Source of the DNA: Halanaerobiales bacterium
Lineage (GTDB): Bacteria; Bacillota; Halanaerobiia; Halanaerobiales; DTU029
Assembly (NCBI GenBank): GCA_029981855.1
Contig: JARRCS010000004.1
Span: 88,074-152,073 of the forward strand
Reading direction: 5' to 3'
Length of the DNA stretch: 64,000 nucleotides
Positions 3,356 through 53,224 of this stretch are shown here, piece by piece (position 1 is the first letter of the stretch; every line of letters starts with the position of its first letter). The notes beneath the pieces were generated by a model. The model made no database searches. It had not been told where the DNA came from and saw only the letters and a program-made list of their open reading frames with translations. Made by a program: the position numbers and the translations under genes.

Positions 3356-4387
3356 TTATTCATTATTCAAATAATCGGTCCCCTGGACCAGGTAGATAAA
3401 ATAGATACCGCCGATAATCAGGCTGGAGTAGAACATAAAAAAACGCCAGATGGCGACAAAAATCCCCAAGAGATAGCCCGGGACCATAAATTTAAAGAGA
3501 TAAGCAAAACCGAGTTCGGCACCACCACTACCACCGGGTGTAGGGATTATCGGTTGAATAAAATTAAAGACCAGCTGGGCTAGAATCACCGGTGGAATGG
3601 CAACCTCAACCCCCAGACCTTTTAGCAAAACCGGGGCCAGGCTCAGGTAAAAAATCCAGTAAAGGACGGTATAGATAATAACCAGAAACATATCCCTCTT
3701 ACTACCTGCCAGCAGCCGGATACCATCATTAAAATAATCAATTTCCTTTTCTAAAAAATTCCTAAATTTCGTCAGGGATTCCTCTTTAAAGAACCTTTTC
3801 ACCAATCTTAAGCCTATTACCCAGTTCAAAAAGACCTTGGCCAGATGGGCATTAAAGATCAAAATTAAACTGGCAACAATAAAAAGGATAACCAAAAGGA
3901 TGGCCAGATAAAAAAGGCCGGTTATCTTTGGGCCTAAATTCAAATACTCTCCCCAGATCAATAAGAGAATCGGGGTGGAGACCATAAAAACGATAAAGGT
4001 CAGCATCCCGTCCAGAACAGTCAGGGCAGTCGTTTTACCCAACTGAATCCCCTCTTTATGTAAAAAATAGATCTGAAAGGGCAAACCCCCAACCGAGGAG
4101 GGGGTTACATGGGCAACAAAGGCACTGGCAAGATAGATACCGAAAACCTTATGAAATAACACCCTTCCTCCCAGGGCACGGATTAAGACCTGTAGTTTTA
4201 AAGACTTTAATATCCAGAAGATAATTGTAATAACTGCAGCCATAACAAGATAATCCGTGTTAATCCTACCAAAGGCCTTCAAGGTAAGCTCACTCTGGGT
4301 TGAAAGCATAACAATAACCAGGGCAACTATGCTAATACTTACGGAATAAATTATCCCCCTTTTGATCGTCTCCCGGCTTATCCCCAT
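3356..4387 (-). CDS. YbhN/UPF0104 family integral membrane protein
   Basis: 343 residues with about eight membrane segments and the family motifs HVTPSSVGGLPFQIYFLHKEG near residue 95 and PTPGGSGGAELGFAYLFK near 280. This is the lysylphosphatidylglycerol synthase transmembrane domain without the soluble synthase domain. Members have been linked to lipid flipping and to glycolipid or polysaccharide pathways. The gene ends just before a GT4 glycosyltransferase and a GT9 heptosyltransferase-like gene on the same strand, so a role in envelope glycolipids is a reasonable inference. Confidence 0.8.
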   Translation of the reverse strand: MGISRETIKRGIIYSVSISIVALVIVMLSTQSELTLKAFGRINTDYLVMAAVITIIFWILKSLKLQVLIRALGGRVLFHKVFGIYLASAFVAHVTPSSVGGLPFQIYFLHKEGIQLGKTTALTVLDGMLTFIVFMVSTPILLLIWGEYLNLGPKITGLFYLAILLVILFIVASLILIFNAHLAKVFLNWVIGLRLVKRFFKEESLTKFRNFLEKEIDYFNDGIRLLAGSKRDMFLVIIYTVLYWIFYLSLAPVLLKGLGVEVAIPPVILAQLVFNFIQPIIPTPGGSGGAELGFAYLFKFMVPGYLLGIFVAIWRFFMFYSSLIIGGIYFIYLVQGTDYLNNE

Positions 4388-4399
4388 AAAATCTCACCC

Positions 4400-5563
4400 C
4401 TAGGCCAGATGCTGCTGGTGACTTTCCCTGGCGGAGATAATTTCCCGATAACCGGCCAGCAATTCAGCCGTCATATTTTCAATGGAAAGCTGCTCAGCCT
4501 TCTTCAGAGCATTTTTTCGAAACAGGTTATAACGGGTTTCATGGGTTAAAAGCTCTATTACCGCTTCGGCAAAGAGGTATTGATCGGCCTTTACCAGCAA
4601 TCCGTTAAACCCATCATCAACCATCACAGTAGAACCGGCTGCATTAACAGCCACAACCGGTAATCCTCCAGCCATCGCCTCCAGTGTCACCAGCCCCTGG
4701 GTCTCGGTTATCGAAGGAAAGACAAAGAGGTCACTGGCCAGGTAATAATCAACAACCTTAACCGGTTCCTGCCTGCCTGCAAAAATCACCTTATCATTTA
4801 AAGAAATCTGTTCTACCATTCTCTCCAGCCTGCCCCGCTCAGGACCATCTCCAACCAGCAGCAACCTGACATTTGTAATGCTATCTAGCACCTTCCTGAA
4901 GGCCTTTAACAGAAAGGTTACATTTTTTTCCTGACCGAGACGCCCGACAAAGAGTAAGACCTTTTCCTTATCGTGAATCTGATATTTTTCTCTGACCCAG
5001 CTCGCATCATTCTCCCTGTAAGGAGTCAGGTCGATTCCGGTAGCCACGGTCTTTAACCGGGTGGTAATCTGATAATCTTTCAGCACTTTCTCTACAAATT
5101 TAGTCGGTGCGATCACCAGATCACAGGACTGGCAGTAATCTCTGCTGTACTTTATAGCCAACCTCCGGGCCAGCTCCTTCCCCACCGGGGCATAATGAGC
5201 ATACTCCTCATAAAGGGTATGGTAGGTAAAAACAAGCGGCAGATCCAGTTTCCGGGCTACATACCTCCCTAACCAGCCCATCAAAAAGGGTGAATGGGTA
5301 TGGATAATATCCAGCCTTAGTTCCTTAACCTCCTGTACCACCCGGTTAGATATAGGTATAGCCAGGCGGAAACCAGGATTGGTCGGTGCAGGAACCGATT
5401 TAAAGCGATAGACATTCTTTTTCCTCTCTGCATCAGGATAATTAGGAGCAAAGATATATACGTCATGCCCCAGTTTGAGTAATTCCGCTGTAAATAAATC
5501 TATAGACTTTACAACTCCGCTCATATAGGGTTTATAACTATCGGTAAAAAAGCCGATCCTCAT
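4400..5563 (-). CDS. GT4 family glycosyltransferase
   Basis: 387 residues from the ATG at 5563, chosen because the family begins at MRIGFFTDSYKPYMSGV and GGGGGTT lies just upstream; a TTG five codons earlier is less likely. The GT-B fold is evident: an N-terminal G-rich loop with YMSGVVKSI, HTHSPFLMGWLG near 95-105, a linker, then LLFVGRLGQEKN and the EX7E-type nucleotide-sugar site PSITETQGLVTLEAMAGGLPVV. Close in pattern to 1,2-diacylglycerol glucosyltransferases and mannosyltransferases. Adjacency to YbhN and GT9 genes suggests glycolipid or LPS-core synthesis; the acceptor is not known. Confidence 0.85.
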   Translation of the reverse strand: MRIGFFTDSYKPYMSGVVKSIDLFTAELLKLGHDVYIFAPNYPDAERKKNVYRFKSVPAPTNPGFRLAIPISNRVVQEVKELRLDIIHTHSPFLMGWLGRYVARKLDLPLVFTYHTLYEEYAHYAPVGKELARRLAIKYSRDYCQSCDLVIAPTKFVEKVLKDYQITTRLKTVATGIDLTPYRENDASWVREKYQIHDKEKVLLFVGRLGQEKNVTFLLKAFRKVLDSITNVRLLLVGDGPERGRLERMVEQISLNDKVIFAGRQEPVKVVDYYLASDLFVFPSITETQGLVTLEAMAGGLPVVAVNAAGSTVMVDDGFNGLLVKADQYLFAEAVIELLTHETRYNLFRKNALKKAEQLSIENMTAELLAGYREIISARESHQQHLA

Positions 5564-5578
5564 CAAGATAACCCCCAA

Positions 5579-6676
5579 TTAGGTTAAACTTACTTCCCGC
5601 AGATACTTTTGCTTATACCTGCTAAGATAAATTTTTCCTTCTTTGATCAAGGTTTCAACCCCTTGAAGAACATCGACTACCTGAATTTCACGCATACACC
5701 TGGCCTTACACCTGGTTGCCCATTCCGGTAAATACTCGGGAAGATACTGTTTCAACTCCCCGAGCCAGGAGAAACAGGGACTACAAGCAAGACCAGCACT
5801 AACCAGTTTATAGTCGGTTCCGTAAGGGTGAAAGTTTGCCGGATTGGTTGGACCGATCAGGGCAATAACAGAGGTTCCTGCGGCAGCAGCAAAATGCATG
5901 GGTGCAGAATCATTACCGATAAAAAGAGCAGCATTTTTTAATAAGGCAACCGTCTCCTTGATCTTCAACTTGCCGGCTAATATTTTAGGCCTGTGGTTAT
6001 AATTGTAAAAGGGATCAATTATCTCCTGGGCCAGTTTCTGATCATCACTACCGCCGATTATCACTATCTCTAAATTATAGGTATTATCAAGAGCCTTAAT
6101 TAATTCCTTAAACCTCTCCGCTGGCCATCTCTTAAAGCTAAAATATTTACCCCCGGGATGAATTGCCACTAAAGGCAGACCAGGGCTAACACCTGCTAAT
6201 CTCAACTTATCCTGCAACAGGCGGTAGTCCTCGGTAGTAGTTACTATTTCTAGTTTAGGATTATTATCCGGTCGGGCCCCGACCAGTTTGACAATCTCCA
6301 GACAATAGTCCACAGCATGTATCCGGCGGTTATCCGGCACATTAAAGTCATAGATCCAGCCAAGCTCTTCACCCTTAAAACCCAGCTTTTTTCTGGCATT
6401 TACCAGGTAGCTAATATAACTACCCACGGTGGAAAGACCAATTGCCAGGTCATAAACCGTCTCCCGGAGATTCTGCAGCTCAGTTATTAACTGCCCCTTT
6501 CCCTTACAGACTATTAAGCGATCTATATTATCATTGCCCGCTAATATTTCCTTGTTATCCTCCCAGGCAATCACATCGATCTCTGCCTCAGGGTAACTAT
6601 TACGTAAAGCCTTAATGGCCGGAGTAGTAAAAAGGGTATCACCTAAAGCAGCTAAAATCAGTACCAGAAATTTCAA
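5579..6676 (-). CDS. GT9 family (heptosyltransferase-like) glycosyltransferase
   Basis: 365 residues showing the GT9 signature: an N-terminal LILAALGDTLFTTPAIKALRNSYPEAEIDVI, a central PLVAIHPGGKYFSFKRWPAERF and the donor site LFIGNDSAPMHFAAAAGTSVIALIGPTNPANF. GT9 enzymes add heptose or related sugars to lipid A-core in the cytoplasm. The C-terminal region has clustered cysteines (GLACSPCF, CKARCMREI), a pattern also seen in bacterial GT9 members. The TTG start at 6676 follows an AAGGGG site. The gene abuts the GT4 gene, supporting joint work on an outer-membrane glycolipid. Confidence 0.85.
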   Translation of the reverse strand: MKFLVLILAALGDTLFTTPAIKALRNSYPEAEIDVIAWEDNKEILAGNDNIDRLIVCKGKGQLITELQNLRETVYDLAIGLSTVGSYISYLVNARKKLGFKGEELGWIYDFNVPDNRRIHAVDYCLEIVKLVGARPDNNPKLEIVTTTEDYRLLQDKLRLAGVSPGLPLVAIHPGGKYFSFKRWPAERFKELIKALDNTYNLEIVIIGGSDDQKLAQEIIDPFYNYNHRPKILAGKLKIKETVALLKNAALFIGNDSAPMHFAAAAGTSVIALIGPTNPANFHPYGTDYKLVSAGLACSPCFSWLGELKQYLPEYLPEWATRCKARCMREIQVVDVLQGVETLIKEGKIYLSRYKQKYLREVSLT

Positions 6677-25748: not shown

Positions 25749-27539
25749 TTAAATATCGAAACTGAAACCAAAACTATTGTCGGCTAGATTATAATTCACT
25801 GACAGGCTGAAGCAGTCATATTTGCGGGTCAGACTGAGGGAGGCCTGATCCCATTCACCGGTCTCGATTTCATATTTCCCATCGATCCCGAAAACCCAGG
25901 CCGATTCGAGCTCCGGCAGTAAATAGGTAAGATCGAGGCCGGTTTTCAAAAACTTACCCACATCCTCCTTGTCATCAGGCAGAAGGGCCTTACCCCTCTC
26001 TTCAGTTATTTCATAACCCAGGGTTGTTTTAAGGTTCATCGCAGGGGAAAGCTTACTGCTATAAGTGCCAGTTATAGCCGAATTAAAAACCAGATAAGAT
26101 TCTTTAGAAGGCCTGAAATAAAGATTATCAGTAATTCTCCCCTGCAGGCTGAGGTTTAAGTTCGGGGTTAACTTAATAGCCTTAGATAAATGTAAATCCA
26201 GGTTCACCTTGTCGGTAGTAACCCCTTCATTCCTTACCCGGCCCAGTCCTGCTCTACCCTTTAAACTAATTCCTCGAAGTTGATAACTCGGGCCGTTAAG
26301 AGTTAAATATGGCAGGTAATCGATCTCATAACCCTCCCTTTGCTGTAAGGTCCAGCTAACCGGACCGCCCTGATAGCCAATACTGTAGGAGTTCTCCTTT
26401 AGCTCTTCATTAATATACCCATGGTAGAAGTTGAGCCTGTAGTCCTTAAAGGGATAGTAGTCTATCTTAAACTTCTCCTCCCGCTCTTTATCTGTCAGAT
26501 TATAGCTTAAACCGGTAAAGAGACTATATTTGTCCTGCTTATACTGCAAATTGGTTTTCAGGATTGTCTCCCGGTCAATAAAATCATAGTCAAACCCGGT
26601 AAAAAGATCTACCGTACCGGAATTATAATTTAATCCGGTACTGAATATTTCCTCCCGGGTAAAAGTTTCCTCATCATCTTCTAGCTCCTTACTGTATTTA
26701 AAATTACCCCTGAGTTCAAGTAGAGGTGAGAGCTGGTAGGAGGTATCAACCCCGGCCCACTGCTCCCCCTGCTGGTTGACCTCGGCTGAGATCTCCCCCT
26801 GCCAGTTTTCATTTACCTGATAGGGATAATAATATTTGACAGTAAAACCATCTTTAGAATTATATCCCAGGTGGGGCAATGGTACAGGGTTACTCAGTTT
26901 CCTGTCACCTTCACTATCATCATACTTTACTACATAGCTGGGTAAAGAAAGTAGCCGGAAATCCCCGATCCAGAACTCAACCCTCTTTCCCACTACCCTA
27001 CCATCAGGATAGACCTGGACCTGGTCGGCCTTAACCTGGTAATGGGGATCGGGCAGGATACAGGGGGTAAAACTGGCCTCTTCTATCTTAAGATCATAAT
27101 CCTCTCCCTGAAGGAGCCTGATCAACCCCCCGCGGAAGTTCAACTCCCCTATCTTACTCCGGGCCCCGTAGATGGTCCCTGTTGCCTCCACATAATTATA
27201 CTTTAAATAAGTACCCGTTACTTCCTGATCGGCGGTTTTTAAGATAACCCTTTCACCGCCGGCCCTTACTATGTTTGTATTTAAGTCCAGCCAGAGCCGG
27301 TCACTCTTAACAACCAGGTCTCCTGTTTCAAATTTAACCATATCTTTTGCCATTACCCTGCCCTGATAATAATCATAGATAATATCACCAGCCTCAAGGG
27401 TATATGGCTGTGCAGGGGGAGACCCCTCTGCGGCGACCGTTAGCGTTAAAAGAGTGCAAAGTAAAATAAGCAAAAAACATATATCTCTTAATTTAGTCTT
27501 TATCTTATTTAATTTAAGCCCTGTCTTATTGGCAAACAA
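25749..27539 (-). CDS. LptD-like LPS assembly outer-membrane protein, stand-alone copy
   Basis: 596 residues, starting at a TTG (27539) with AGGTGG seven bases upstream. A basic N-terminus and hydrophobic core ending TVAAEG form a signal peptide. Residues about 35-150 are an OstA/LptA-like jellyroll (EAGDIIYDYYQGRVMAKDMVKF; DRLWLDLNTNIVRAGGERVIL; TGTYLKYNYVEATGTIYGAR). Then FTPCILPDPHYQVKADQVQVYPDGRVVGKRVEFWIG matches the LptD linker before the barrel, and about 380 residues of beta strands end FGFSFDI. LptD inserts LPS in the outer leaflet with LptE. A second LptD domain is fused to a permease at 47718-50897, so one of the two may handle a different lipid. Confidence 0.82.
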   Translation of the reverse strand: MFANKTGLKLNKIKTKLRDICFLLILLCTLLTLTVAAEGSPPAQPYTLEAGDIIYDYYQGRVMAKDMVKFETGDLVVKSDRLWLDLNTNIVRAGGERVILKTADQEVTGTYLKYNYVEATGTIYGARSKIGELNFRGGLIRLLQGEDYDLKIEEASFTPCILPDPHYQVKADQVQVYPDGRVVGKRVEFWIGDFRLLSLPSYVVKYDDSEGDRKLSNPVPLPHLGYNSKDGFTVKYYYPYQVNENWQGEISAEVNQQGEQWAGVDTSYQLSPLLELRGNFKYSKELEDDEETFTREEIFSTGLNYNSGTVDLFTGFDYDFIDRETILKTNLQYKQDKYSLFTGLSYNLTDKEREEKFKIDYYPFKDYRLNFYHGYINEELKENSYSIGYQGGPVSWTLQQREGYEIDYLPYLTLNGPSYQLRGISLKGRAGLGRVRNEGVTTDKVNLDLHLSKAIKLTPNLNLSLQGRITDNLYFRPSKESYLVFNSAITGTYSSKLSPAMNLKTTLGYEITEERGKALLPDDKEDVGKFLKTGLDLTYLLPELESAWVFGIDGKYEIETGEWDQASLSLTRKYDCFSLSVNYNLADNSFGFSFDI

Positions 27540-27744
27540 GATCAATCCACCTTTCTTGATACATATAAGAGGCCAATTTGTTCATTAAGCTAATTAAAAT
27601 AAAGAAGAAAATCTCTCAGGGAAGATATAACGCTCCTTATAATGCAGCGCCCCTCTAATGCAGTAATAATAAGGGTATAAAAATATGGGTATATTAATAC
27701 ATATTCTTAATAAATAGCCAAATCCCTGCATGAAAAGGCTGGAA

Positions 27745-36177: not shown

Positions 36178-36246
36178 AACTGCAAATAGAAGTTAGAGAG
36201 ATATTTTAGAAATTTTTGTGAATGAGCCTGAGTAAATCGGAATTTT
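36178..36246. repeat. Solo left half of the palindromic intergenic repeat
   Basis: AACTGCAAATAGAAGTTAGAGAGAT, then GAAATTTTTGTG and a GTAAATCGG segment match the left half of the full element at 51097-51307 with a few changes. It fills the space between the DUF3084 start and the lptF/G stop. Confidence 0.65.
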
Positions 36247-37337
36247 TATCGCCCTACCCTGTAGAGCAAAACCCCGCCGATAATTAAGAAGACAAAGTTC
36301 TGCAGCCAGGCCCCCAGGAAGGGGGAAATGCTCCCCTGCTCACCCATGGCACTCCCAATGGTCATCAGGCTATAATAGATAAAGATCACAATGATACTCA
36401 AACCCAGTCCGGTGGCCGAACCGCTGGAACGCTGGGGCTGGATGCCCAGCGGGGCTGCCAGCAGGGCAAAGATAAAACTGGCAAAGGGTATGGCTAGCCT
36501 CTGGTGGAATTTAACCCGTTCCTTATTTGTATTCCGCCCCTGTTCCTCCATCATCTCGATATACTCTTTTAATTCCCTGATATTCATTTCATCGATCTTT
36601 TTATTTATCCTGGCTACCCTTCGCGGTGTATAGGCAATCTGCTTCGCATCATAGCGAGCAAACTTCAGGGCGGGGATCCTCTCACCGGCCTTAAGGTAAT
36701 AGATCCGGCCGTCTAAAAACTCCCAGCCCTCCTTAGACCAGACCGCCTTCTCGGCCTCAATCAGGGTTACCGGCTTACCCTCTTCATAATCCTGAAAGAT
36801 AACATCATGCATAATACCGGTATCTCCGTCAAAGAGACGGGTATATAAGACATAATCGGGCCTACCCCTGTCCAGAGGGGTTAAAAAGAGATTCTCCTGA
36901 GTAGCCGGCAGCTTCTCACCATGCTTAAACTCCCAGACGATCTGTTCATTGAGGTAATTAGCAGCAGGTACAACCAGTTCATTGACGGCAATAGTTATAC
37001 CGGTCATCAGCAACCCGATCACCAGTGCCGGGATAACCAGCTTATAGATACTGACCCCTCCGGCCCTCAAGGCGGTGATCTCACCATCACCGGAAAGCCG
37101 GCCGAAGGCCATGATAACAGCCAGCAGGGTGGCCATAGGAAAGGTTAGAACAATAATCTCCGGGAGATTTAAGAAAAAGAGCTGAATCAGGGTCAGTAAT
37201 TCAACCCCCCACTCGTTATAGTACCTGGTCAGGGTAAAGAGCAGGTCGGTACCGATAAAGATACCGGTAAAGGCTGCCACTCCGAAAAAAAATGGTGCAA
37301 TTAGTTCCCTTACTATATAGCGGTAGATTATCTTCAA
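36246..37337 (-). CDS. LptF/LptG family LPS export permease
   Basis: About 363 residues from the TTG at 37337 (GAGGTG eight bases upstream); a GTG five codons earlier overlaps the lptB stop. YjgP/YjgQ layout: three N-terminal membrane helices (IVRELIAPFFFGVAAFTGIFIG; NLPEIIVLTFPMATLLAVIMAFGRLSGDGEITALRAGGVS), a periplasmic beta-jellyroll from about 130 to 260, and three C-terminal helices. The coupling-region motif GRLSGDGEITALRAGG is conserved. It would pair with a second family member to form the LptB2FG core that extracts LPS from the inner membrane. The only other family member here is the N-terminal half of the 47718-50897 gene. Confidence 0.9.
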   Translation of the reverse strand: MKIIYRYIVRELIAPFFFGVAAFTGIFIGTDLLFTLTRYYNEWGVELLTLIQLFFLNLPEIIVLTFPMATLLAVIMAFGRLSGDGEITALRAGGVSIYKLVIPALVIGLLMTGITIAVNELVVPAANYLNEQIVWEFKHGEKLPATQENLFLTPLDRGRPDYVLYTRLFDGDTGIMHDVIFQDYEEGKPVTLIEAEKAVWSKEGWEFLDGRIYYLKAGERIPALKFARYDAKQIAYTPRRVARINKKIDEMNIRELKEYIEMMEEQGRNTNKERVKFHQRLAIPFASFIFALLAAPLGIQPQRSSGSATGLGLSIIVIFIYYSLMTIGSAMGEQGSISPFLGAWLQNFVFLIIGGVLLYRVGR

Positions 37338-37348
37338 ACCCTGGCACC

Positions 37349-38068
37349 TCACATTGTAAACCTTTCTCCCAGATAGAATTTACGGGCCAGCTCGCTGGCC
37401 GCTACCTCCTCCGAACTGCCGGAGAGCAGAATCCTGCCCTCATGCATGATATAGGCCCGGTCGGTGATGGAAAGGGTCTCCCTGACACTGTGGTCGGTAA
37501 TTAAAACCCCCAGGCCCCTCTCCTTTAAATAACTGATAATATTTTGAATATCGCAGACCGCAATCGGGTCAACCCCGGCAAAGGGTTCATCTAAAAGGAT
37601 AAAAGAGGGGTCTGTAGCCAGAGAGCGGGCTATCTCCACCCTTCTCCTCTCACCACCGGAAAGCTGAAATCCCTTTCTCTCCCTCAGATGGCTGATATTA
37701 AACTCTTCCATTAAATCCTCCAGTTTCTTTTCGGCCTCAGCAGCCGGGATATCCCGGGCCTGGAGGATGGCCAGGATATTCTCGGCCACGGTTAATTTAC
37801 GGAAGACCGATGGCTCCTGGGAGAGATAACCTATCCCCAGCCTAGCCCTCTTATAGACGGGTAGGTGGGTAATATTATGTTCATCGAGAAAGATCTCCCC
37901 CGCAGCCGGCTTAATCAGGCCAACGACCATATAAAAGGTGGTGGTTTTACCGGCCCCGTTCGGGCCGAGGAGACCGACAATCTCGCCCCTTTCTACGGTA
38001 AAATCAACCTCATCGACCACCCGGTGGTTATTATATTCCTTAACCAGGTTTCTGGCAGTGATAGTCAT
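37349..38068 (-). CDS. lptB: LPS export ABC ATPase LptB
   Basis: 239 residues. Walker [17 protein letters not shown], signature [16 protein letters not shown], Walker [17 protein letters not shown] and switch His in [11 protein letters not shown]; the [14 protein letters not shown] stretch is typical of LptB. It powers extraction of LPS by the LptF/G permeases at the inner membrane. The start codon abuts the lptA stop (TAGATG), so they are co-translated. Length and motifs are normal. Confidence 0.95.
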
Positions 38069-38710
38069 CTATTCCTCTCCTTTACCGGAAAATAATAACC
38101 TGGCCTGTCCGGAGAGAACGATGGTTTCCCGGGTAAGATTAACGGTAAGTTTTTCACCGGAGAACTGCTGTCCATCCTGCTCACCCCGGACATTCCCCTC
38201 CAGAATGGCGGTCTCTTCCGTCAGATTATAGGTAATAGTCTCTGCTTCAGCCCTGATCTTTTTAAACTCCAGGACTGGTTTACCCTTCACTACTGCCCTT
38301 CCAGATTGCTGGTGGTAGGTCAGGGTGGTTCCGGTCAGTACCAGATCCTCCCCGGTCAATCTGATATTCCCCTCAAAGAGGTACTCCTGCCGGTTTAAAT
38401 TGCCTTCCAGCTTATCCCCCTCTATCGTGTAATCGGGGTTATTAAAAACCACCCCTCCGCTCAAGACAATATCCTTGCTTTCCGTATTATACCTGGCCTT
38501 ATCTGCCGTTGCCCTGATCTCCTGATAGATAAGCAGGGCATTGCCTTCGGCAACTACTTCATAGGAGCCCTCACCGGAGATAAAGGTAATCTTATCACCG
38601 TAGATCCCCTGCTGCTCTTTAGCCCCTTTCTGCTCTTCTGCCAGTACTTGCAGGCTGGAAAAATATAATATCAGGACAGCAGTAAGTATCAATATCAGTG
38701 CTTTTTTCAT
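38069..38710 (-). CDS. lptA: Periplasmic LPS bridge protein LptA (OstA domain)
   Basis: 213 residues. The signal peptide ends near SLQVLAEE. Repeated jellyroll strands follow (DKITFISGEGSYEVVAEGNALLIYQEIRATADKARYN; IVLSGGVVFNNPDYTIEGDKLEG; EYLFEGNIRLTGEDLVLTG), the OstA pattern of LptA. LptA monomers stack head to tail between LptC and LptD and carry LPS over the periplasm. The start overlaps the lptC stop by one base. A second OstA-like gene lies at 46886-47629. Confidence 0.88.
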   Translation of the reverse strand: MKKALILILTAVLILYFSSLQVLAEEQKGAKEQQGIYGDKITFISGEGSYEVVAEGNALLIYQEIRATADKARYNTESKDIVLSGGVVFNNPDYTIEGDKLEGNLNRQEYLFEGNIRLTGEDLVLTGTTLTYHQQSGRAVVKGKPVLEFKKIRAEAETITYNLTEETAILEGNVRGEQDGQQFSGEKLTVNLTRETIVLSGQARLLFSGKGEE

Positions 38711-39288
38711 CAGCCTCTCTCCTTCCAGGTGAAATAGGCCTGTTTTGCCCTGTTTCCGTAAACGGTCAGTTTATTTAAATCAGGTCTGGCCTCAAAGCGG
38801 TCACCGGTAAGTGTAAAAAACGGGGCTCTGAATACAACTCCTCCCCTACCGGTAATCAGATTATGATCTTTTTGCCAGCTTAACTCTGCCGTCTCCATCT
38901 CCAGCTCGTCCTTATTAATCAGGATTGGTCCGGATAGGGTTAGTTCCCCTCTGCCGGACCGGTAGATACCCTTAGCAGCCATAACGGAATATAGCTTCTG
39001 CCTGGCCGGATTTAGGGCCTCAATGCTTACCGGAAGTAGTTTAAGTAAAGCCTTATCTTCGAAACTGCTCAACTCTGCAGAGCTTACCTCCCAGCATACT
39101 GTCCGTTCCTTGTTATATAAGGTAAGGTTAACCTCTTGAAATCTATCATCGGGTTTTGCCTCCGGCTGGGGAGCCGTATCATTACCGGGGTTTAGCCCTT
39201 CTCCTCTCTCCCCCCGGTAGGTAAAAGCAAAATACATACCTCCGATAATCATTATGATGATAGCCAGCAAGATATACTTTTTACCCAC
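38710..39288 (-). CDS. lptC: LPS transport protein LptC
   Basis: 192 residues with one N-terminal membrane anchor (YILLAIIIMIIGGMYFAFTY), a polar linker and an LptC-type beta jellyroll (FQEVNLTLYNKERTVCWEVSSAEL; GIYRSGRGELTLSGPILINKDELEMETAELSW; FTLTGDRFEARPDLNKLTVYG). It binds the LptB2FG complex and passes LPS to LptA. The GTG start follows AGGGG. It lies immediately before lptA, as in proteobacteria. Confidence 0.85.
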   Translation of the reverse strand: MGKKYILLAIIIMIIGGMYFAFTYRGERGEGLNPGNDTAPQPEAKPDDRFQEVNLTLYNKERTVCWEVSSAELSSFEDKALLKLLPVSIEALNPARQKLYSVMAAKGIYRSGRGELTLSGPILINKDELEMETAELSWQKDHNLITGRGGVVFRAPFFTLTGDRFEARPDLNKLTVYGNRAKQAYFTWKERG

Positions 39289-43628: not shown

Positions 43629-44363
43629 TTAATTATAATTTATGATATTTTTATACTTTTTACCTATCCAGGAGGTGGGATGATTAAAAACCTCTTCCGG
43701 AGGACCCGATTCAATAAACTTACCCCTGTCCATAAAATAGATCCTGTCAGCAACCCTCCGGGCAAAAGTTACCTCATGGGTAACGATAATCATCGAAGTA
43801 TTCTTTCTTTCCTGGATAATATTCTCTAAAACATCGAGTACCTCTCTGATCAGGATAGGGTCCAGGGAGGCGGTCGGTTCATCGAGGAGAATCAAGTCCG
43901 GTTCCAGGACCAGTGCCCGGGCAATACCAACCCGCTGTTTCTCCCCGCCACTTAGTTTATCAATATAATAATCGGCCATTTTTTCTAAACCAACATCCTT
44001 TAAAGCCAGTATGGCCCTTTCATAGGCTTCCTCAATGCTTAATCCCTTTTTAACTAAACCCAGGGCAACATTCTGTTTTGCCGTCAAACGCCGGATCAGG
44101 TTAAAGTGCTGAAAAACAAAACCAATATCCTGTCTTACCTCTTCCAGCTCCGCTGAGTTCAGGTTGTGAATAGCAATACCCTTAAAATAGATCTCACCGG
44201 AATCCGGTTCGATTAAACGGTTGATGGAGCGAATAAAGGTGGATTTACCGCATCCGCTTGGTCCCATGATGGCAACAATCTCCCCGGGTTTTATCTCCAG
44301 ATTGATTCCATCTAATACTATATCATTGTCGTACTTCTTTTTCAAATTAATTACTTTTAACAT
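43629..44363 (-). CDS. ABC transporter ATPase of the polar-amino-acid (GlnQ) sequence type
   Basis: 244 residues with AGGAGG before the ATG. Walker A GPSGCGKSTFIRSINRL, Q-loop FQHFNLIRRLTAKQNV, signature LSGGEKQRVGIARAL, Walker B LILLDEPTASLDP and switch VTHEVTFARRVADRIYFMDRG. By sequence this resembles GlnQ/HisP-type ATPases rather than LptB or MlaF. No solute-binding protein gene accompanies it. The only partner in reach is the large membrane protein upstream (44440-46797), so the pair probably forms an unusual transporter. Substrate unknown. Confidence 0.88.
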   Translation of the reverse strand: MLKVINLKKKYDNDIVLDGINLEIKPGEIVAIMGPSGCGKSTFIRSINRLIEPDSGEIYFKGIAIHNLNSAELEEVRQDIGFVFQHFNLIRRLTAKQNVALGLVKKGLSIEEAYERAILALKDVGLEKMADYYIDKLSGGEKQRVGIARALVLEPDLILLDEPTASLDPILIREVLDVLENIIQERKNTSMIIVTHEVTFARRVADRIYFMDRGKFIESGPPEEVFNHPTSWIGKKYKNIINYN

Positions 44364-44439: not shown

Positions 44440-46797
44440 TCATTTAAATATAACTTTAGGGTAATTCAGGAGATATAGCAGCCCGGGTTTACCGGCTGGA
44501 ATAATAATCTCCTGCATAATTTCCGCAGTAGAAAAACCCAGAGCCTTTCCTGCCTCCCATTCCTCCTTATTAACCGGATTGAGCATATTGGCAAAAAAGG
44601 CCACAATTAAGCCCAGGATTCCCCCGATGATAAACTCCGTCTTGAAATCCAGGTAATGAAAATCTATCCGGCTTAAGAAACAGATCAGACTGAAGATTAG
44701 ACCACCGCTCAAAAAACCGTAGATAAAGCCATTGCCCCCATTCAGTCTGACTACACTGATAATCAAGGTCTGATCCAGAATCATAACCAGCAGGGTAAAG
44801 ACCAGGGCAATAATGATGGAAATAACAGCCTTGACCTGTCTTAAGATATTAAAGACCTCCCCCCGGGGGTTGGGGGTAATATACCCCGCTTCCATTTCAA
44901 TAAAACTTACTGCCGGATTCTTAATCACCGTCCTGATCTCTTTAACCAGTTCCTTACCGTTATACTGCCCCTTCAGTAATAGCTGGATCTGATCCCCTGG
45001 TATTACCTGACCGGCGAGATAACTATCGATTAGATTGATGGTCTCCACAATCTCCGCTTCCTTTAGGTCTGGCAGGGAGTTCTGGATATATGACAGCTGA
45101 TCAAGGACAACCGGCAGCTGGGTTGTTTTTAACTCAATCAGTAAATCCTGAATTGATCTTAACTTATCCTGTAGTTTACCTGTATCTATTATTTGGGCGG
45201 TCTCATCTATCTGACCGATAACAGTCTCTACCTTCTGCCAGTCAGCCCCGCTATTAAGGGTATCCTCCACCCTTAGCAGGGAATTTATTTTCTCCTTCCA
45301 GTCATCGATAGAGCTCAAAACCGGATTCATATTATTTAATCTTTGGGCCACCAGATCATAGTTATTATCCAGAGCGATAGCCAGCTGTAAAAACAGGTTT
45401 TTCAATTCATTTAGCTCTTGATAAATGCTATTATTCCTGGGGACAAAGATCAATTTCTCCTCAATCAAACCTGCCCCCTCTTTTAACTTATTACTGGTCT
45501 TAATCAGGTCCTGCTGGATATCGTTAATATCACCGACATTAGTCTTGATATCATCCAAAATCTTTAGCAAATCCTCTAAAAAGGTGGAAAGTCCTTCCTG
45601 CTGCCATTCCTGGAGGGTTTTCCTTAAATTCTGGCTGGTCTTCTCCAGCTGACTCAGGCCCTGATTGACGTTAGCCAGGTCCTCACTCAGCCGCTCACTG
45701 TACTCAACCATCTGCTCGCTCTGCTCAAGAAAACCATTAAGGCTGGGGGTAATCTCATTGAGACTTTCCAGGGCATCGGCCAGGTCCTGGCGCGGGTTAT
45801 TTACCTTCCCTTCTCCGAGCCATCTCTCTCCAGTACCGTCCCGGCTTGGCAAATAAACATCAAGGGAATCTATCTGGATATTATTTAGGTCCCCCTCCTG
45901 AATGAGGGCAAGTAGCTGGTTATCCCGATTGTCTATCACCTCTAAAACGATTCTCCTGCCATCACCGGTCCTGGCAATAAGCCTGCTGCCGATAGCTATC
46001 TCCTTACTGTCCTCTAATTCGGAGACCACTATCTTGGTTGCATAAGATAGGAGAAAGGTCTTCATCTGTTTCAGGCTCGTCAACAGCGCCAGCCGGTCTG
46101 ACTTATCATTCCTGGTGACATCTATCACATTATCCAGATCATCCCTGATCAGGTTATAGATTCTCTCCTGTATCCTGGGCAAGTTCTCCGAATGCTGGTT
46201 AAGCGGGTACCTGATCTCCAGCAACCTGTATTGCTCAAGGATATTAGCTATCTTTTTTTTGACCTCAGGGAGTAGTTCCGGTTTCTCCACAATAATATCC
46301 AGACCGTCACCCGTCGGGTAGAGGAAATCAATCCCCTCAATCTCCTCTATATATGACCTCATTACCGGTCTGGTATTCCCCCTAAAACCCCTAACCGATA
46401 AACGGGGCTCAGTCATAATCGTCTTGCTCATCAATCCCGGTATATCGGCAAAGTACTTGCCGAGATTGATATACGTCTCTTCATTTTTATATTCATCCGG
46501 TAATTTAAGTAAGTAATTGCTGCTACCTGCAACCCTGGGCCCTGTCTTAAATTTTGAACCGGGCAGGGTTTCAGCAGCAATTTTTTTAATCTGTTTCAGG
46601 GCTATATCCTCCTTATCGGTGGTCAGGGTAAATAACAGGTCATATTCACCGTACTCACCGATAAGACCGCTCACCATACTGGCAAAGTAATTATCAGTAA
46701 GATAACCCCCAACCAAGACCAGGACAGTTCCCAGTAAGATGGAGGTTATCAATAGAGTCAGAATTCCCTTTTTAAAATTGGACCGCAAAAGAAACAT
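44440..46797 (-). CDS. Large ABC-type permease with long extracytoplasmic coiled-coil region
   Basis: 785 residues from the ATG at 46797; a promoter with -10 at 46829-46824 leaves only a short leader, so the earlier ATG/TTG near 46821 is unlikely. One membrane segment (GILTLLITSILLGTVLVLVGGYL) is followed by about 620 extracytoplasmic residues. The first 300 are mixed alpha/beta; the rest is coiled coil (EQSEQMVEYSERLSEDLANVNQGLSQLEKTSQNLRKTLQEW). Three or more membrane segments end the protein, followed by KALGFSTAEIMQEIIIPAGKPGLL, which looks like the EAA loop by which permeases contact their ATPase. I recognise no named family. A trans-periplasmic transporter of lipid or another envelope component is an inference. 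Confidence 0.6.
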   Translation of the reverse strand: MFLLRSNFKKGILTLLITSILLGTVLVLVGGYLTDNYFASMVSGLIGEYGEYDLLFTLTTDKEDIALKQIKKIAAETLPGSKFKTGPRVAGSSNYLLKLPDEYKNEETYINLGKYFADIPGLMSKTIMTEPRLSVRGFRGNTRPVMRSYIEEIEGIDFLYPTGDGLDIIVEKPELLPEVKKKIANILEQYRLLEIRYPLNQHSENLPRIQERIYNLIRDDLDNVIDVTRNDKSDRLALLTSLKQMKTFLLSYATKIVVSELEDSKEIAIGSRLIARTGDGRRIVLEVIDNRDNQLLALIQEGDLNNIQIDSLDVYLPSRDGTGERWLGEGKVNNPRQDLADALESLNEITPSLNGFLEQSEQMVEYSERLSEDLANVNQGLSQLEKTSQNLRKTLQEWQQEGLSTFLEDLLKILDDIKTNVGDINDIQQDLIKTSNKLKEGAGLIEEKLIFVPRNNSIYQELNELKNLFLQLAIALDNNYDLVAQRLNNMNPVLSSIDDWKEKINSLLRVEDTLNSGADWQKVETVIGQIDETAQIIDTGKLQDKLRSIQDLLIELKTTQLPVVLDQLSYIQNSLPDLKEAEIVETINLIDSYLAGQVIPGDQIQLLLKGQYNGKELVKEIRTVIKNPAVSFIEMEAGYITPNPRGEVFNILRQVKAVISIIIALVFTLLVMILDQTLIISVVRLNGGNGFIYGFLSGGLIFSLICFLSRIDFHYLDFKTEFIIGGILGLIVAFFANMLNPVNKEEWEAGKALGFSTAEIMQEIIIPAGKPGLLYLLNYPKVIFK

Positions 46798-46823
46798 CTG
46801 CCTTTCACTCCTATCCATCAACT

Positions 46824-46885: not shown

Positions 46886-47629
46886 TCAATTAGATGAAAT
46901 CTTCAATTCCAGCTCTACCTCACCATCAGCAGAGAATTCCCCGGTCTCCAGATAAAAGGTTGCCTGCCGGCTCTTAACCCAGTCACCGCTCTCTTCTTCA
47001 ATATAGACATTTCCTGTAAGTTTCAGGGTCTGCTCCCGGTCATTATAGGTTGCCCTGTCGGCCTTCAAAATGCGCTGATCATAGCTAATCACCACACCCT
47101 GTTCAGCCGTAAAGGACTTATCTTCAGCAAATAGCACCAGATAGGAGGTCTCAAGCTGCAGGCCTCCTTCTTTTTCCAGCTGCTGCTTTAGCTCAACCTT
47201 CCTCCTGAAGATATACTTATCTTCCGTCAGTAGGGCAGTCATCTCCAGAGATTTAATCTCTCCTTTACTGTGTTTTAAGAGAACATCACCCTCCAGTTCG
47301 GCCCTGCTTTCTTCCTTGAAATAGATACCCCGGGGAGCGGTTATATTATTATCCCCCTTAATGATGGTAATCCCGTCCCTGACCTCGATCCTTTCTTCCA
47401 TATAATTGAGGCGGCCCGCCCGGATATGGATAGTCTCCCCGGAAGATTCCCCGGAGGCTTTGGACTGATTCCCCTGGACCTCTCCGGAAACCTTCTCCTG
47501 ATCCTCTCCAGATGATTCGGACTTATCCTCCCCGGCCAGCACCCGCCCGTTAAACAACGGCATGGCCCCGGAGAGTAACACTCCGGTCAGTAACATCACG
47601 ATCAAAAAAACTATCATCAATTTTTTCAT
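46886..47629 (-). CDS. LptA/OstA-like periplasmic protein, second copy
   Basis: 247 residues. The signal peptide is long and ends near NGRVLAGE. A spacer rich in Ser, Gly and Glu (40-65) precedes OstA-type strands: IHIRAGRLNYMEERIEVRDGITIIKGDNNITAPRGIYFKEESRAELEGDVLLKHSKGEIKSLEMTALL, and later RILKADRATYNDREQTLKLTGNVYIEEE. It ends without a barrel. The family carries LPS or related lipids in the periplasm. It stands between the permease-LptD fusion gene and the large permease gene, so it may serve a second bridge. Confidence 0.75.
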   Translation of the reverse strand: MKKLMIVFLIVMLLTGVLLSGAMPLFNGRVLAGEDKSESSGEDQEKVSGEVQGNQSKASGESSGETIHIRAGRLNYMEERIEVRDGITIIKGDNNITAPRGIYFKEESRAELEGDVLLKHSKGEIKSLEMTALLTEDKYIFRRKVELKQQLEKEGGLQLETSYLVLFAEDKSFTAEQGVVISYDQRILKADRATYNDREQTLKLTGNVYIEEESGDWVKSRQATFYLETGEFSADGEVELELKISSN

Positions 47630-47717: not shown

Positions 47718-50700
47718 TCACTCTATTTCCAGCAAATCCCCGATCCCGAGATCGAACATAAAGGGTTCTTCCTCACTGCTGCCCAGCTTGATACCCTGAT
47801 CCGGGAAGAGGTTTATCCGGTATTCAATGGTAAACTCCTGATTTAAATAATCATAGCTAAAACCAAGTTCACGGCAGTGGAAGTTCTTCTTCAGCAGCAG
47901 GTTAGCCTTCTTGAGGGTATTATCTTCATTATCATAACTCGTATTCAGGGCGAAATACCACTCATCCTTCAGGTCAAAGATAAGCTGGTTATCTACCTGC
48001 TGGAGGAGTTTATCCTCCAGGTTATACTTGAGGGCTGAATTAACCTCCCAGACTTCGTTCTTATATTTGCTGGTAAGGGCCAGATCACCGAAACTCCCGG
48101 AGTCAGGATCATAATAGGTCCCCGCCCCGATCTTCCAGTCCGGGTTTACCTGCCAGTCCAGGAGTGCCTGTAAGGGGAAGTATTCCCGCCCGTAGAGATC
48201 ATAACCGGTACTAAACCTGAGATCCAGCCCGCCCGAGCGGTAACTGAGCTTACTATTTATACTCTCCTTAAAATTAACCCGGTCAAAGTTAAAGGGGGTT
48301 TGACCGGTGTATCCCTGAAAGCTATACCGGTTATTCCAGGTCAGGCCCCTGGTCAGGGTAGTCTTTAGCCCTATATGGCTCTCGTAGGAAGCCAGATAGG
48401 GTTCGAGCTCGGGATTATAATCTCTTTGATAGCTATTTAAGGAGTTATCTCCGTAATCTATTCCCCAGTAGAATTTGCCGGTCAGGGTCTGTCCTGTACT
48501 CAGAGTAGTCCCGTTACTCAGATGCCACCTTCCGTCATAGGTTATCTTCCCCAGGCCGCGGTAACCCTTAATCCCGGAAGCATCCTCATAATATCTCCCC
48601 AGAAGCAGCTGATAACTTACGTTTCCAGGAGGCCGGTACTTGAGGTCAACCTCGGGCCAGCGGTAAAAGGTTACCTTATCATCGTCCTCGCTGAATCCGG
48701 GGGCATACCTCTCCAGGGTCAACTTAAAATCAAGATTGCCGGCCCGCCTGGCCAGGTAGCTCCTGCTCCCCCACCTCTTTTTTAACCCGTCCTCCGGATT
48801 ATAGAGGTAATCCCGGTTATAACCCAGATCTAAAAACCAGTCATTATCCAGTTTCCGACGGTAGGAAAAATCCAGGTTCAGCATCTTATCATCATTATGA
48901 TCGCTCTCAAAGTAATCCTTACTGTCAAAGCGGGAAGAAAAATTTATCAACTGCTTATTACTAATATTAGCCACATATGTGCTGCCATTTAATATACTGT
49001 GATCATCATAATAGGTATATTTAAGCAAGGTATCAGTCCGCCAGTCACCCTGCTGATCCTCAAGATCAACCGCCCCCTGCCAGCGGAACAAACCGGGCAG
49101 ATCTGTCCGGTTCTCCTGACCGTAGAGATAAAGGGATCCTTTAAGATCGGGCTCGTAATAAAGGTATTGTTTTAATCCCCCTCCATAGCCAGAGATGGTA
49201 TAGTAATCGAGGTATAATTCACCGGGCAGCCGCTGGTCATACCAGTAATTATAGGTGGTCTTAATAAACCAGCCCCTAGTTGCACTATAACCGATCTCAG
49301 GAATCAGGTGCTGCGGTCTATCCTTTAATGAAATATAAAGATAGGGCCAGTAAAAAAGGGGCAGCTTACCGCCGAGCTCCCGGAAGACCACTTCTCTGGC
49401 CACCAGGTAATCATCGGGATAGATGATAACCTCTCTAGCCTCAAAATAATAGTGTGGTTTGTCCAGTTCACAGCCGGTTATCTTCCCCCCGGAGATTAGA
49501 ATCTCCCGGGGAGCGGTCTCTATCTTCTCCGAGCCGTTATCATACTTGATGATCAGCTTATCTGCCTTGATATGGAATCTCTGATAAAAACCGCTGATAT
49601 CCCCCATAAGCTCCATTTGCCCCGTTTCCTTCTGATACTGCAGATGGTCTATACCCTTAAGCTTCAGTTTAGTGCCGGCACCGGAAGCAGCCTTAACATT
49701 TTCAGCAAAAGTATTAGTTTCAGTACCGGAAACGGTTGCCGGCCAGATAAATAGCAGCAAAAGAATTATGGCCAAAAAGGGTAACAAACGATTCAGCCAG
49801 TTCTGCCAGCTCTCTCTCCAGATAAGGAGAATAATCCCGATAAGGGCAAAGACTAAATTCGGCAGCCAGGCAGCAAGCAGCGGTGGAAGCTCCCCGTTTC
49901 GGCCGAAGGAACGGGAGAGAGAAAGAATCAGATAAAAGAGAAAGACGATCACAATTGTCAAAATAATACTGGCCGAGCGGCTGTCCTTATTACTGAGGCT
50001 TAAGGGGGTTCCGATCAGGATAAAGATCAGGGCCGTCAGGGGCATGGCCAGCTTTAAGTGATAGTCTATCAACAGGGAATCTACATTTATCCCGCTTTTC
50101 TTAAAGAGGTCAATCTCCTTTTTCAGCCTCTCCCGGCTCATCTCGGAGGTAGTTCTCTGTTCACCGAAGAAGTTTTCCATATCCCCGACCAGTTGATACT
50201 CCATAACCTCAAAGCGGCTCTCCAGGGTTAGATCTCCGTCATCTGTATATTGGTGAATAATCCCACTCTCCAGGCGCCACCTGTTTTTGACTACCCTGCC
50301 CCTTTGAGCTGTGATTATCTCGGGAAAGCCACTCCTGTCAGGGAAATTGTAGATCACAATCTTCTCCAGGGTGCTGGTCTTTTCATTATATTTATTAACA
50401 TAAAAGAGCCTGCCTTCCGGGCCCTTAAAGAAGACGTTCTCCCGGATATCAGGCATAGCCTGCTTTAAAATGGACTGTCTGATAATATTCTGGGCCTGAT
50501 GATTGCTCCAGGGGACCACCTCTTCATTGAGCAAATAGGTCGCCCCGCTGATAAAAACTCCCAGGATGATCAGGGGTAAAATCAGCCTGTAGAGGCTAAT
50601 CCCTCCCATTCTTAGGGCTGTGAACTCATTCTCCCTATTCAGTCTCCCCATTCCTGCCATGGTGGCAAACAAAATTGAGATGGGAAAGGTCTGGACGATA

Positions 50701-50897
50701 ATCTCCGGCAGCTGGTAGAAAAGGAGTCTGAGCACCAGGGCCAGAGGAATATCTTTTATAATAATCAGGTCTGTTAGCTGAAAGAGAAAACTACTTAGCA
50801 TAATAATCTCGATAATGGCTACCCCGACCAGAAAGGGAATTAAAACCTCTCTTATTATGTAAAAATCGATAATCTTTATCTGCCAGAATTTAATCAT
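47718..50897 (-). CDS. LptF/LptG permease fused to LptD in one reading frame
   Basis: 1059 residues from the ATG at 50897 (GGAGAG six bases upstream). Residues 1-360 are a complete YjgP/YjgQ permease: three helices, GRLNRENEFTALRMGG, a periplasmic jellyroll and three helices. A seventh hydrophobic segment (LLPFLAIILLLLFIWPATVSG, about 371-391) looks like a signal peptide with a small-residue cleavage site. An OstA/LptD linker follows (GMELMGDISG-like strands; TGCELDKPHYYFEAREVIIYPDDYLVAREVVF; LPLFYWPYLYIS), then about 530 residues of beta-barrel strands ending GDLLEIE. No ribosome site precedes an internal start. Cleavage would release an inner-membrane LptF/G and an outer-membrane LptD. Confidence 0.85.
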   Translation of the reverse strand: MIKFWQIKIIDFYIIREVLIPFLVGVAIIEIIMLSSFLFQLTDLIIIKDIPLALVLRLLFYQLPEIIVQTFPISILFATMAGMGRLNRENEFTALRMGGISLYRLILPLIILGVFISGATYLLNEEVVPWSNHQAQNIIRQSILKQAMPDIRENVFFKGPEGRLFYVNKYNEKTSTLEKIVIYNFPDRSGFPEIITAQRGRVVKNRWRLESGIIHQYTDDGDLTLESRFEVMEYQLVGDMENFFGEQRTTSEMSRERLKKEIDLFKKSGINVDSLLIDYHLKLAMPLTALIFILIGTPLSLSNKDSRSASIILTIVIVFLFYLILSLSRSFGRNGELPPLLAAWLPNLVFALIGIILLIWRESWQNWLNRLLPFLAIILLLLFIWPATVSGTETNTFAENVKAASGAGTKLKLKGIDHLQYQKETGQMELMGDISGFYQRFHIKADKLIIKYDNGSEKIETAPREILISGGKITGCELDKPHYYFEAREVIIYPDDYLVAREVVFRELGGKLPLFYWPYLYISLKDRPQHLIPEIGYSATRGWFIKTTYNYWYDQRLPGELYLDYYTISGYGGGLKQYLYYEPDLKGSLYLYGQENRTDLPGLFRWQGAVDLEDQQGDWRTDTLLKYTYYDDHSILNGSTYVANISNKQLINFSSRFDSKDYFESDHNDDKMLNLDFSYRRKLDNDWFLDLGYNRDYLYNPEDGLKKRWGSRSYLARRAGNLDFKLTLERYAPGFSEDDDKVTFYRWPEVDLKYRPPGNVSYQLLLGRYYEDASGIKGYRGLGKITYDGRWHLSNGTTLSTGQTLTGKFYWGIDYGDNSLNSYQRDYNPELEPYLASYESHIGLKTTLTRGLTWNNRYSFQGYTGQTPFNFDRVNFKESINSKLSYRSGGLDLRFSTGYDLYGREYFPLQALLDWQVNPDWKIGAGTYYDPDSGSFGDLALTSKYKNEVWEVNSALKYNLEDKLLQQVDNQLIFDLKDEWYFALNTSYDNEDNTLKKANLLLKKNFHCRELGFSYDYLNQEFTIEYRINLFPDQGIKLGSSEEEPFMFDLGIGDLLEIE

Positions 50898-51508
50898 AAA
50901 CAACTCTCCACTAAATTAATCTTTCACTTTATTAGATATTTTACGACAATATTTACGACAGGTCAATTTTTACAAACACCTAGAATATCAGGTCATCTGG
51001 CTCTTAGCAAATTATTCACCGGGCCTTCTTAGGCCTTCTTACTATCATTAAATTAATGCCTCTCTTTGTTCGGCAACTTACTTTTTACCTTCAAACAACT
51101 GCAAATAGATGTTAGAGAGATGTTTGGAAATTTTTTGTATATGACTCTTGGTGAATCGAAAGGAAAAATTAGGTCGAGCCAAAGGACGTGGCGAGCTAAT
51201 TCAGGGTCAGGATGACCCATTGAATTAGGTAACCTAAATTTTTCTTGGAGATGAACCTTAGAGTCATCAAAAAATTTCCACTGAATCGGAAACATCTATT
51301 TGCAGTTTGCAAAAAAAATTTCCTAATAGTATTAAACTATATTAGTTAGTATATTATCAATAAACCATATTATTATACTTCTACCATTATAGCCTGATAC
51401 CTGCAACACACCTGCAACCAAAAACTGCCAACAAATAACAAAAGGATTTAGGGAACCGGGGTTTAATATATTAAATATGACTTAAATGTAAAAAAAATGG
51501 GGGATCTT
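50898..51508. other. Divergent intergenic region carrying a palindromic repeat
   Basis: 611 bases between divergent genes. The 211-bp palindromic element fills 51097-51307. The remainder is AT-rich and should hold the promoters for the fusion gene on the left and the protease gene on the right, but I could not fix either with confidence. Confidence 0.55.
51097..51307. repeat. Full-length palindromic MITE-like element
   Basis: AACTGCAAATAGATGTT (51097-51113) and its exact reverse complement (51291-51307) bound the element; similarity of the two ends continues inward for about 50 bp (GGAAATTTTTTG, GACTC). Inside, AAAAATTAGGT pairs with ACCTAAATTTTT, and CTAATTCA-GGGTCA pairs with TGACCC-TGAATTAG, so the whole can fold into one long hairpin with side arms. 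No transposase frame is present. Partial copies lie at 9322, 36178, 41380, 53976 and 56651. Confidence 0.8.
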
Positions 51509-53224
51509 ATGGGAATTATTTCATTTAATAAAAATCATGTCGGCTATAGTAAGAATAAAGTTAAAATTATATCTCTGCTACTTATTGCCTTATCTCTTTT
51601 TTTATTAACGGGATGTTCCAACCGTGCCCGGGATGATGACCTGATTATCCGGGGCCAGGTCAAAATTGCAGGTCTTGACGGTATCCAATTTATTGCCAGC
51701 CGGCCAAATATAACTGATATAACTAACTGGATAAATATTAATACAGTACCAGAAGAGCCCGCACTTTATAATCCGGGTGAGTACATAGTAAAATTTACCA
51801 AAAATCTAACCGTTAAATATATCGATGAGGAAATACTGAAGGGTTACGGCAAGACCTTAAGAAAAATTGCCGGTAATACATATAAGATCAAAATTACCTC
51901 TTCTGAAAAGTTTAATCTGATTGATTCTCTGGCCAATAATCCTCTGATATCTTATATCGAGCCCGATTATCTGGTTCATATTCAGGATTATACTGTTCCT
52001 AATGACCCGGGATATTCTCAACAGTGGAATCTTAAAATGCTGGGATTAAGCAGGACCTGGAACAGCTATCAGGGCAGTAATAACGTAGTGGTAGCGGTGG
52101 TTGATACGGGTATCCTGCCGGGTCATCCCGACCTGAAGGATAACCTGGTCCCCGGTTATGATTTTGTAGATAATGATAATGACCCGACCGATACGGACCC
52201 AAACTTCAGCCACGGAACCCATGTCGCCGGTATTATCGGTGCTGTTACCAATAACAGAGAGGGAATCGCCGGAATTAACTGGCATGTCAGGATAATGCCT
52301 GTCAGGGTAATAGGGCCGGGAGGAAGCGGAGGCTATAGTGCCCTTATCTCCGGTATCCGGGAGGCAGTTGACAGGGGGGCAGATGTTATTAATCTCAGCC
52401 TGGCTGGAGAGGTGGATTCACCTTCCCTGCATGATGCGGTAAAATATGCGGTAGCTAAGGGAGTTACCGTTGTTGCTGCCGCCGGGAATAATAACTCAAC
52501 CCCGATCCTCTACCCGGCACGCTATCCTGAAGTCATCAGTGTGGGGGCTATTGGTCCGACAAAGGAAAGGGCCTACTACTCCAACTACGGTCCGAACTTA
52601 GACCTGGTAGCACCGGGTGGTGATAGTTCGGTATTCTCTGCGGAGATTAATTCCATCCTCAGCACTGCAGGTTATATGGAGTCAACCGGGCCGGTCCATC
52701 AATACACTTATGCCCAGGGAACCTCAATGGCAGCACCCCATGTCTCGGGACTGGTAGCCCTGCTTTACAGTGCCGGGATAACTGATCCTGAGGATATTAA
52801 AGACCTTCTCAAAAGGACCGCTGATGACCTGGGGCCGGCTGGAGAAGATGACTGGTACGGTGCCGGTCTGGTTAATATCAATCGGGCTCTCGGTCTGGAT
52901 AACTATGGTCAGCCATCCCCAATGCCGGGTAGCGATAATAATGACAGTCTGGATCAGGCCCAGCTTTTGGGTCAGGTAAAGATCTTGGCAGCCAGGGAAG
53001 AAGAGGGGAATAAGGTGGGCAAAACAACTACTACCACCGATAGCAACGGCAGATTCAACCTCAAACTTAGTCCCGGCACCTGGACGATCAGCGGTTGGCT
53101 CGATATAAACGGCAATGAGGAGATCGATGCCGGCGATTACTACGGGGCGGTTGAGAATATCCAGATCAACCGAGATAGTGTAGATGAGATAATTACTCTT
53201 GAATTGACCAAGTTAATAAAATGA
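51509..53224 (+). CDS. Subtilisin-like (S8) serine protease lipoprotein
   Basis: 571 residues from the ATG at 51509 (GGGGGAT upstream). A lipobox LLTGC places the lipidated Cys near residue 36. A propeptide-like region (YIVKFTKNLTVKYIDEE to SYIEPDYLVHIQ, about 90-160) precedes the S8 domain. The catalytic triad is Asp199 in VVDTGI, His235 in SHGTHVAG and Ser406 in GTSMAAPH; the oxyanion Asn is in AAAGNNNS. The last 100 residues form a beta domain (GRFNLKLSPGTWTISGWLDINGNEEIDAGDYYG) like carboxypeptidase-regulatory folds. It should act in the periplasm or at the outer surface. Its opposite orientation interrupts the envelope locus. Confidence 0.92.
   Translation: MGIISFNKNHVGYSKNKVKIISLLLIALSLFLLTGCSNRARDDDLIIRGQVKIAGLDGIQFIASRPNITDITNWININTVPEEPALYNPGEYIVKFTKNLTVKYIDEEILKGYGKTLRKIAGNTYKIKITSSEKFNLIDSLANNPLISYIEPDYLVHIQDYTVPNDPGYSQQWNLKMLGLSRTWNSYQGSNNVVVAVVDTGILPGHPDLKDNLVPGYDFVDNDNDPTDTDPNFSHGTHVAGIIGAVTNNREGIAGINWHVRIMPVRVIGPGGSGGYSALISGIREAVDRGADVINLSLAGEVDSPSLHDAVKYAVAKGVTVVAAAGNNNSTPILYPARYPEVISVGAIGPTKERAYYSNYGPNLDLVAPGGDSSVFSAEINSILSTAGYMESTGPVHQYTYAQGTSMAAPHVSGLVALLYSAGITDPEDIKDLLKRTADDLGPAGEDDWYGAGLVNINRALGLDNYGQPSPMPGSDNNDSLDQAQLLGQVKILAAREEEGNKVGKTTTTTDSNGRFNLKLSPGTWTISGWLDINGNEEIDAGDYYGAVENIQINRDSVDEIITLELTKLIK

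Follow-up and report, generated by a model that had tools for sequence, protein, structure and literature searches.

The Lpt system of Escherichia coli (LptB2FG-C-A-DE) shares several parts with the locus described here: a LptF/G permease with the coupling-helix glutamate, an ATPase of the LptB family, a LptA/LptC-like protein, and an LptD fold with one conserved cysteine in its N-domain and another near the C-terminus. Unlike in E. coli, however, the permease and LptD are here one chain, a single permease type would serve each line, and the line of the fusion type is present in genomes lacking LpxC. In the Halanaerobiales, LptD could not be found by Antunes et al. 2016 (PMC5007114), and Leonard et al. 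2022 recorded no lptD in atypical diderms (PMC8871954). Like those described below, the LptD of another diderm Bacillota, Veillonella parvula (Vpar_0647), was initially overlooked in sequence searches. It was found later by proteomics, and it differs from our protein in that a gene of its own, in a different neighbourhood, was reported for it (PMC5491611). The barrel-bearing MlaD of V. parvula, which was proposed to bridge both membranes, also combines an inner-membrane helix and an outer-membrane barrel in one frame of a diderm Bacillota, but it spans the periplasm with a long helical spacer and was reported as a full-length protein, rather than a cut precursor, across the membrane fractions (PMC10665443). 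In the literature searched, no LptF-LptD fusion was mentioned. The nearest mechanistic precedent known is FbcH, the cytochrome b/c1 precursor of Bradyrhizobium, which consists of a polytopic membrane protein joined through an internal signal peptide to a second protein and is cut after translation. FbcH is a respiratory enzyme, however, and its second product stays at the inner membrane.

We analysed a 64,000-nucleotide stretch of a Halanaerobiales genome (the window) and found that a single gene of this salt-loving, two-membraned bacterium encodes, in one chain, both a lipid pump of the inner membrane and a lipid pore of the outer membrane. The minus-strand frame 47718-50903 is open over 1061 codons when counted from a TTG, and this numbering is used for residues below. 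The true start is likely the ATG at 50897, which had also been chosen in the original prediction and agrees with a Shine-Dalgarno-like GGAGAG (50904-50909, minus strand) read directly from the sequence six bases 5' of it. The lptF-lptD fused gene would then span 47718-50897 on the minus strand, with 1059 codons and a stop. At the local stop frequency, the probability of an open frame this long is about 2e-30, which rules out a chance frame. A frameshift or assembly error, for which a stop codon or frameshift near 49790 had been named as the sign, was also ruled out, since the fused frame is intact in many related genomes, single-contig ones included.

The permease domain (49821-50861, minus strand; residues 15-361) matched Pfam LptF_LptG with E=4.6e-100 over profile positions 2-352 of 353. 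In the alignment with E. coli LptF and LptG, the coupling-helix glutamate that engages LptB is present. The NCBIfam equivalog cut-offs were not reached (206 of 240 bits for LptG and 187 of 230 for LptF), and the LptF/G of the LPS cluster described below likewise stayed under them. Therefore, we assigned neither permease to F or G.

Curated models name the fused gene as a LptF/G permease only, and the LptD half had no match in Pfam or NCBIfam, so its membership among LptDs rests on fold. The predicted mature protein, which we call LptD2 (47721-49724, minus strand; residues 394-1061), was modelled with AlphaFold2 from 22 sequences (mean pLDDT 76, pTM 0.56), and both a jellyroll N-domain and the LptD barrel fold were found in the model. 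When the model was searched with Foldseek, the top 38 PDB matches were all solved LptD chains (best E=2.3e-19), while the first other barrel came at 1.4e-5. VIA-align gave Z of 12.6-14.8 for many LptDs. Although it lists other barrels at similar Z, a generic barrel was ruled out by the Foldseek ranking. LptD also came first, if weakly (E=0.008), when PDB sequences were searched with a profile; the GCD-type cysteine and the FYxPY motif were aligned in this match. The OstA-type beta-jellyroll is placed at 49299-49673 (about residues 411-535) by alignments, model strands and the profile match to solved LptD, and the beta-barrel at 47799-49298 (about residues 536-1035) by the model, Foldseek and alignment, both on the minus strand. 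The fused-protein alignment shows an invariant Cys478 in the N-domain and a nearly invariant Cys1010 close to the end of the barrel; this is as expected for LptD, and the two are predicted to be able to pair. Pfam for the permease, Foldseek for LptD and the conserved fused frame thus bear out the original prediction of one polyprotein. By domain and fold the parts are LptF/G and LptD, although below or outside the curated equivalog models, and the system would work as an Lpt line. The full-length AlphaFold2 model of the fusion was of low confidence (pLDDT 65, pTM 0.41) and carried no information at the junction.

Between the two halves lies a putative internal signal peptide (49725-49817, minus strand; residues 363-393). 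After the sixth helix, a basic stretch is followed by a hydrophobic core and then by small residues. In the window the junction reads LLPFLAIILLLLFIW PATVSG TETN, with the predicted signal peptidase I cut between VSG and TETN, and the fusions of other families have the same layout. An extra hydrophobic segment that sends the LptD part across the membrane had been predicted at about residues 371-391 and was confirmed where it was placed. The small-residue cleavage site noted originally also lies where it was placed. Using a site rule that asks for A, G or S at -1 and for a residue at -3 that is small or aliphatic, we found that the junction helix is followed by a signal-peptidase-I-like site in 29 of 29 fusions, compared with 51 of 152 other helices of these proteins. 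The strict AxA/VxA form is present at 22 of 29 junction helices versus 6 of 152 other helices (p=4e-17, merely indicative as the rows are related). The window's own site is among the weaker ones, with Gly and not Ala at -1. The junction core is hypervariable (column entropy 2.38 versus 0.6-1.25 for permease regions). Since signal-peptide cores vary in this way, the segment appears to act like a signal peptide rather than a packed helix. Where Halobacteroidaceae have the two genes separately, with 12 bases between them, the signal peptide of LptD aligns with the junction segment of the fusions and, judged by this alignment, the segment is LptD's former signal peptide retained in the fusion. Cutting is on this basis far more probable than a chain that ties the two membranes together covalently.

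The chain could instead stay uncut and connect the inner to the outer membrane, as proposed for Veillonella MlaD, a precedent of one protein reaching both membranes (PMC10665443), and the single open frame in many species would fit this. However, a single jellyroll separates the junction helix from the barrel. In most relatives the predicted cut is followed within a few residues by the first strand of LptD, so that the N-domain of an uncut chain would be kept at the inner membrane. Given the general width of the periplasm, one jellyroll should be too short to cross it, and the uncut chain should therefore not reach the outer membrane. Moreover, the cleavage-type site is kept everywhere despite the drifting helix sequence. 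We regard an uncut tether as very improbable. Thus, where the original prediction had left a choice between a cut and an uncut chain, cutting is favoured and the covalent link fits poorly.

Alternatively, LptD could be made separately by an internal start or re-initiation, and the long frame would be a mere translational overlap. In many Bacillota lptF lies directly beside lptD or the two genes share a few bases, and their translational coupling may thus be ancestral. In 3 of 9 fusions outside the class (L115, L117, L123) a Met directly precedes the hydrophobic core, which leaves an internal start possible there. The window junction, however, has no in-frame ATG and no in-frame start with a Shine-Dalgarno match of more than 3 bases, consistent with the original observation that no ribosome site precedes an internal start. 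In 7 of 29 fusions there is no ATG, GTG or TTG in frame within the tested junction codons. Internal starts are not conserved, and the Shine-Dalgarno strength at them is little above background. An internal start is therefore improbable, and the product is most likely a precursor cleaved by predicted signal peptidase I action.

The search for the fusion in other Halanaerobiales, proposed with the original prediction, gave a fused frame in 20 of 38 genomes of the order (one cut by a contig end), so the halves are not always separate in relatives. The remaining genomes comprise 3 with separate LptF2 and LptD2, 3 with LptF2 and no detected LptD2, and 12 without both. One fused genome of the order is a single contig with a frame of 1041 codons, and the named carriers include Halothermothrix, Halanaerobium, Frackibacter and Fuchsiella. 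The fusion is also present in family f8 of the class, and further fusions of 1049-1140 codons were found in families f72, f47 and f81. The gene order lptF-lptD-LptA/C-like is widespread across the phylum. On the permease tree, the fused state has to change six times, and well-supported branches force at least four of these changes, which means that fusion or fission happened repeatedly. The tree, which does not include f81 (G170), was read unrooted because the E. coli LptF and LptG outgroups are very long-branched. In the G170 fusion (L117:2347-2610 and 2513-5659), the first ~50 residues are in another frame, possibly by an assembly frameshift. Separately, the relatives G011, G018, G048 and G050 (L027, L028, L030, L032) kept the second permease with no matching LptD2 detected. 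A divergent gene for a subtilase-type protein (51497-53224) lies upstream of the fusion in the window, as it does in several relatives.

The fusion is adjoined on the minus strand by the gene for a LptA/LptC-like bridge protein (46886-47629; Pfam LptC 3e-12, LptD_N 2e-6), which is the next gene downstream in every fused locus with enough sequence. Further conserved neighbours of the fusion, also on the minus strand, are a 793-aa ABC-permease-like protein (44440-46821) and the ABC ATPase of this protein (43629-44363), which is not LptB. The 793-aa protein has no Pfam match; it contains a long coiled region and, close to the C-terminus, an EAA-like loop. In many families, with or without LpxC, it follows the lptF-lptD-LptA/C genes together with its ATPase.

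The window also holds an LPS cluster on the minus strand. This consists of a LptF/G (36246-37352, by Pfam), LptB (37349-38068; TIGR04406, 368 bits), which is the sole LptB above the curated cut-off in the genome, LptA (38069-38710; Pfam LptD_N/LptA) and LptC (38710-39288; Pfam LptC). As predicted, this LptF/G is the only other one in the window, and the whole genome holds just the same two. A second LptD-like protein, LptD1 (25749-27545, minus strand; 598 aa), had been missed in the original prediction. It has no LptD match in Pfam and was matched by the LptD2 profile (hhalign against LptD2 99.6%, E=2.5e-24). With this profile, a short LptD-like frame, mostly of 550-640 codons, was found in most genomes of the order. 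LptD1 is probably the LptD of the LPS line, overlooked in earlier surveys, and our guess is that the V. parvula LptD matches it rather than the fused LptD2. Two LptD-like proteins are thus found where surveys had none, one of them hidden in a gene named as a permease.

To follow the two permeases across the phylum, we sampled 398 genomes, of which 102 had at least one of LpxC, LptD2 and LptF/G, and used LpxC as a stand-in for LPS. The number of LptF/G genes equalled the presence of LpxC plus the presence of LptD2 in 88 of the 102 positive genomes and broke this rule in 14; these counts span genomes of varied completeness, and members of one family are not independent. LptD2 was found without LpxC in 17 genomes, with exactly one LptF in 15 of them, and 16 sampled genomes had LptD2 and LptF with no LpxC match (15 with one LptF and one with two). 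A search with the LptD1 profile in ten LptD2 genomes lacking LpxC returned no second LptD, only LptD2. The LPS-cluster permease is missing from such genomes, and in 4 of 6 of their LptD2 loci examined an LptB that exceeds the curated cut-off is encoded within a few genes. The line with LptD2 is therefore not confined to genomes with lipid A synthesis, as judged by LpxC. LptD1, the LPS-cluster LptF/G (LptF/G1) and LptB are retained in members of the order without the fusion, as is LpxC in nearly all of them; ten of these genomes carry LpxC, LptB and LptF/G1. Since the LptF/G counts follow LpxC and LptD2 additively, the fusion probably belongs to a second Lpt line separable from LPS export, and two lines with one permease type each would be the simplest reading. 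Both lines probably share LptB, because the window genome has one LptB above the cut-off.

The original prediction had instead suggested that the LptF/G at 36246-37352 may have its LptB2FG partner in the fused permease. Both would then form one heterodimer that exports LPS, and LptD2 would be the LPS pore. Both permeases do keep the coupling-helix glutamate, there is one LptB per genome, and both permease genes lie within one outer-membrane gene cluster. However, 11 genomes of the order (at least 95% complete) have no second LptF at all while 10 of these 11 have LpxC, and families lacking LpxC carry only the LptD2-linked LptF. The LPS-cluster permeases form one clade (support 99/100) apart from the fused permease and are accompanied by a second, short LptD of their own, and in many genomes each permease is found without the other. 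Together with the additive counts, this disfavours the proposed partnership, and the heterodimer is an unlikely explanation. A mixed dimer is possible in genomes with both permeases.

A signal-peptidase-I-cut LptF-LptD2 precursor of a second lipid-export line beside the LPS line is the best explanation, and we hold it to be reasonably probable. The first six helices would fold into the LptF/G permease and end in the cytoplasm, and the old LptD signal peptide at the junction would then start Sec export of the remaining chain. After the cut by signal peptidase I past the junction segment, the permease would stay in the inner membrane with a short remnant of a seventh helix, and the freed LptD2 would go to the outer membrane. 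We infer that the permease pairs with itself and with LptB, and that the neighbouring LptA/LptC-like protein bridges the permease side to LptD2. One chain would give one permease per LptD, which makes the fusion a clean natural case in which a pump of the inner membrane and its outlet in the outer membrane are produced 1:1. The second line would run beside the LPS line of LptF/G1, LptB, LptA, LptC and LptD1, and its cargo is probably an envelope lipid other than LPS. The co-occurrence points to an LPS-independent Lpt line in diderm Bacillota, and this bears on the function of an outer membrane without LPS. That such a line generally exports an outer-membrane lipid in diderm Bacillota, with both its membrane ends made from one cut precursor, is a more tentative proposal.

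Genomes lacking LpxC also have a conserved 420-aa protein with weak similarity to LpxB, which may make an exported glycolipid. Its gene sits between the ABC pair and LptB (L211:15981-17252, L212:16484-17746, L214:16825-18096, L216:11482-12741).
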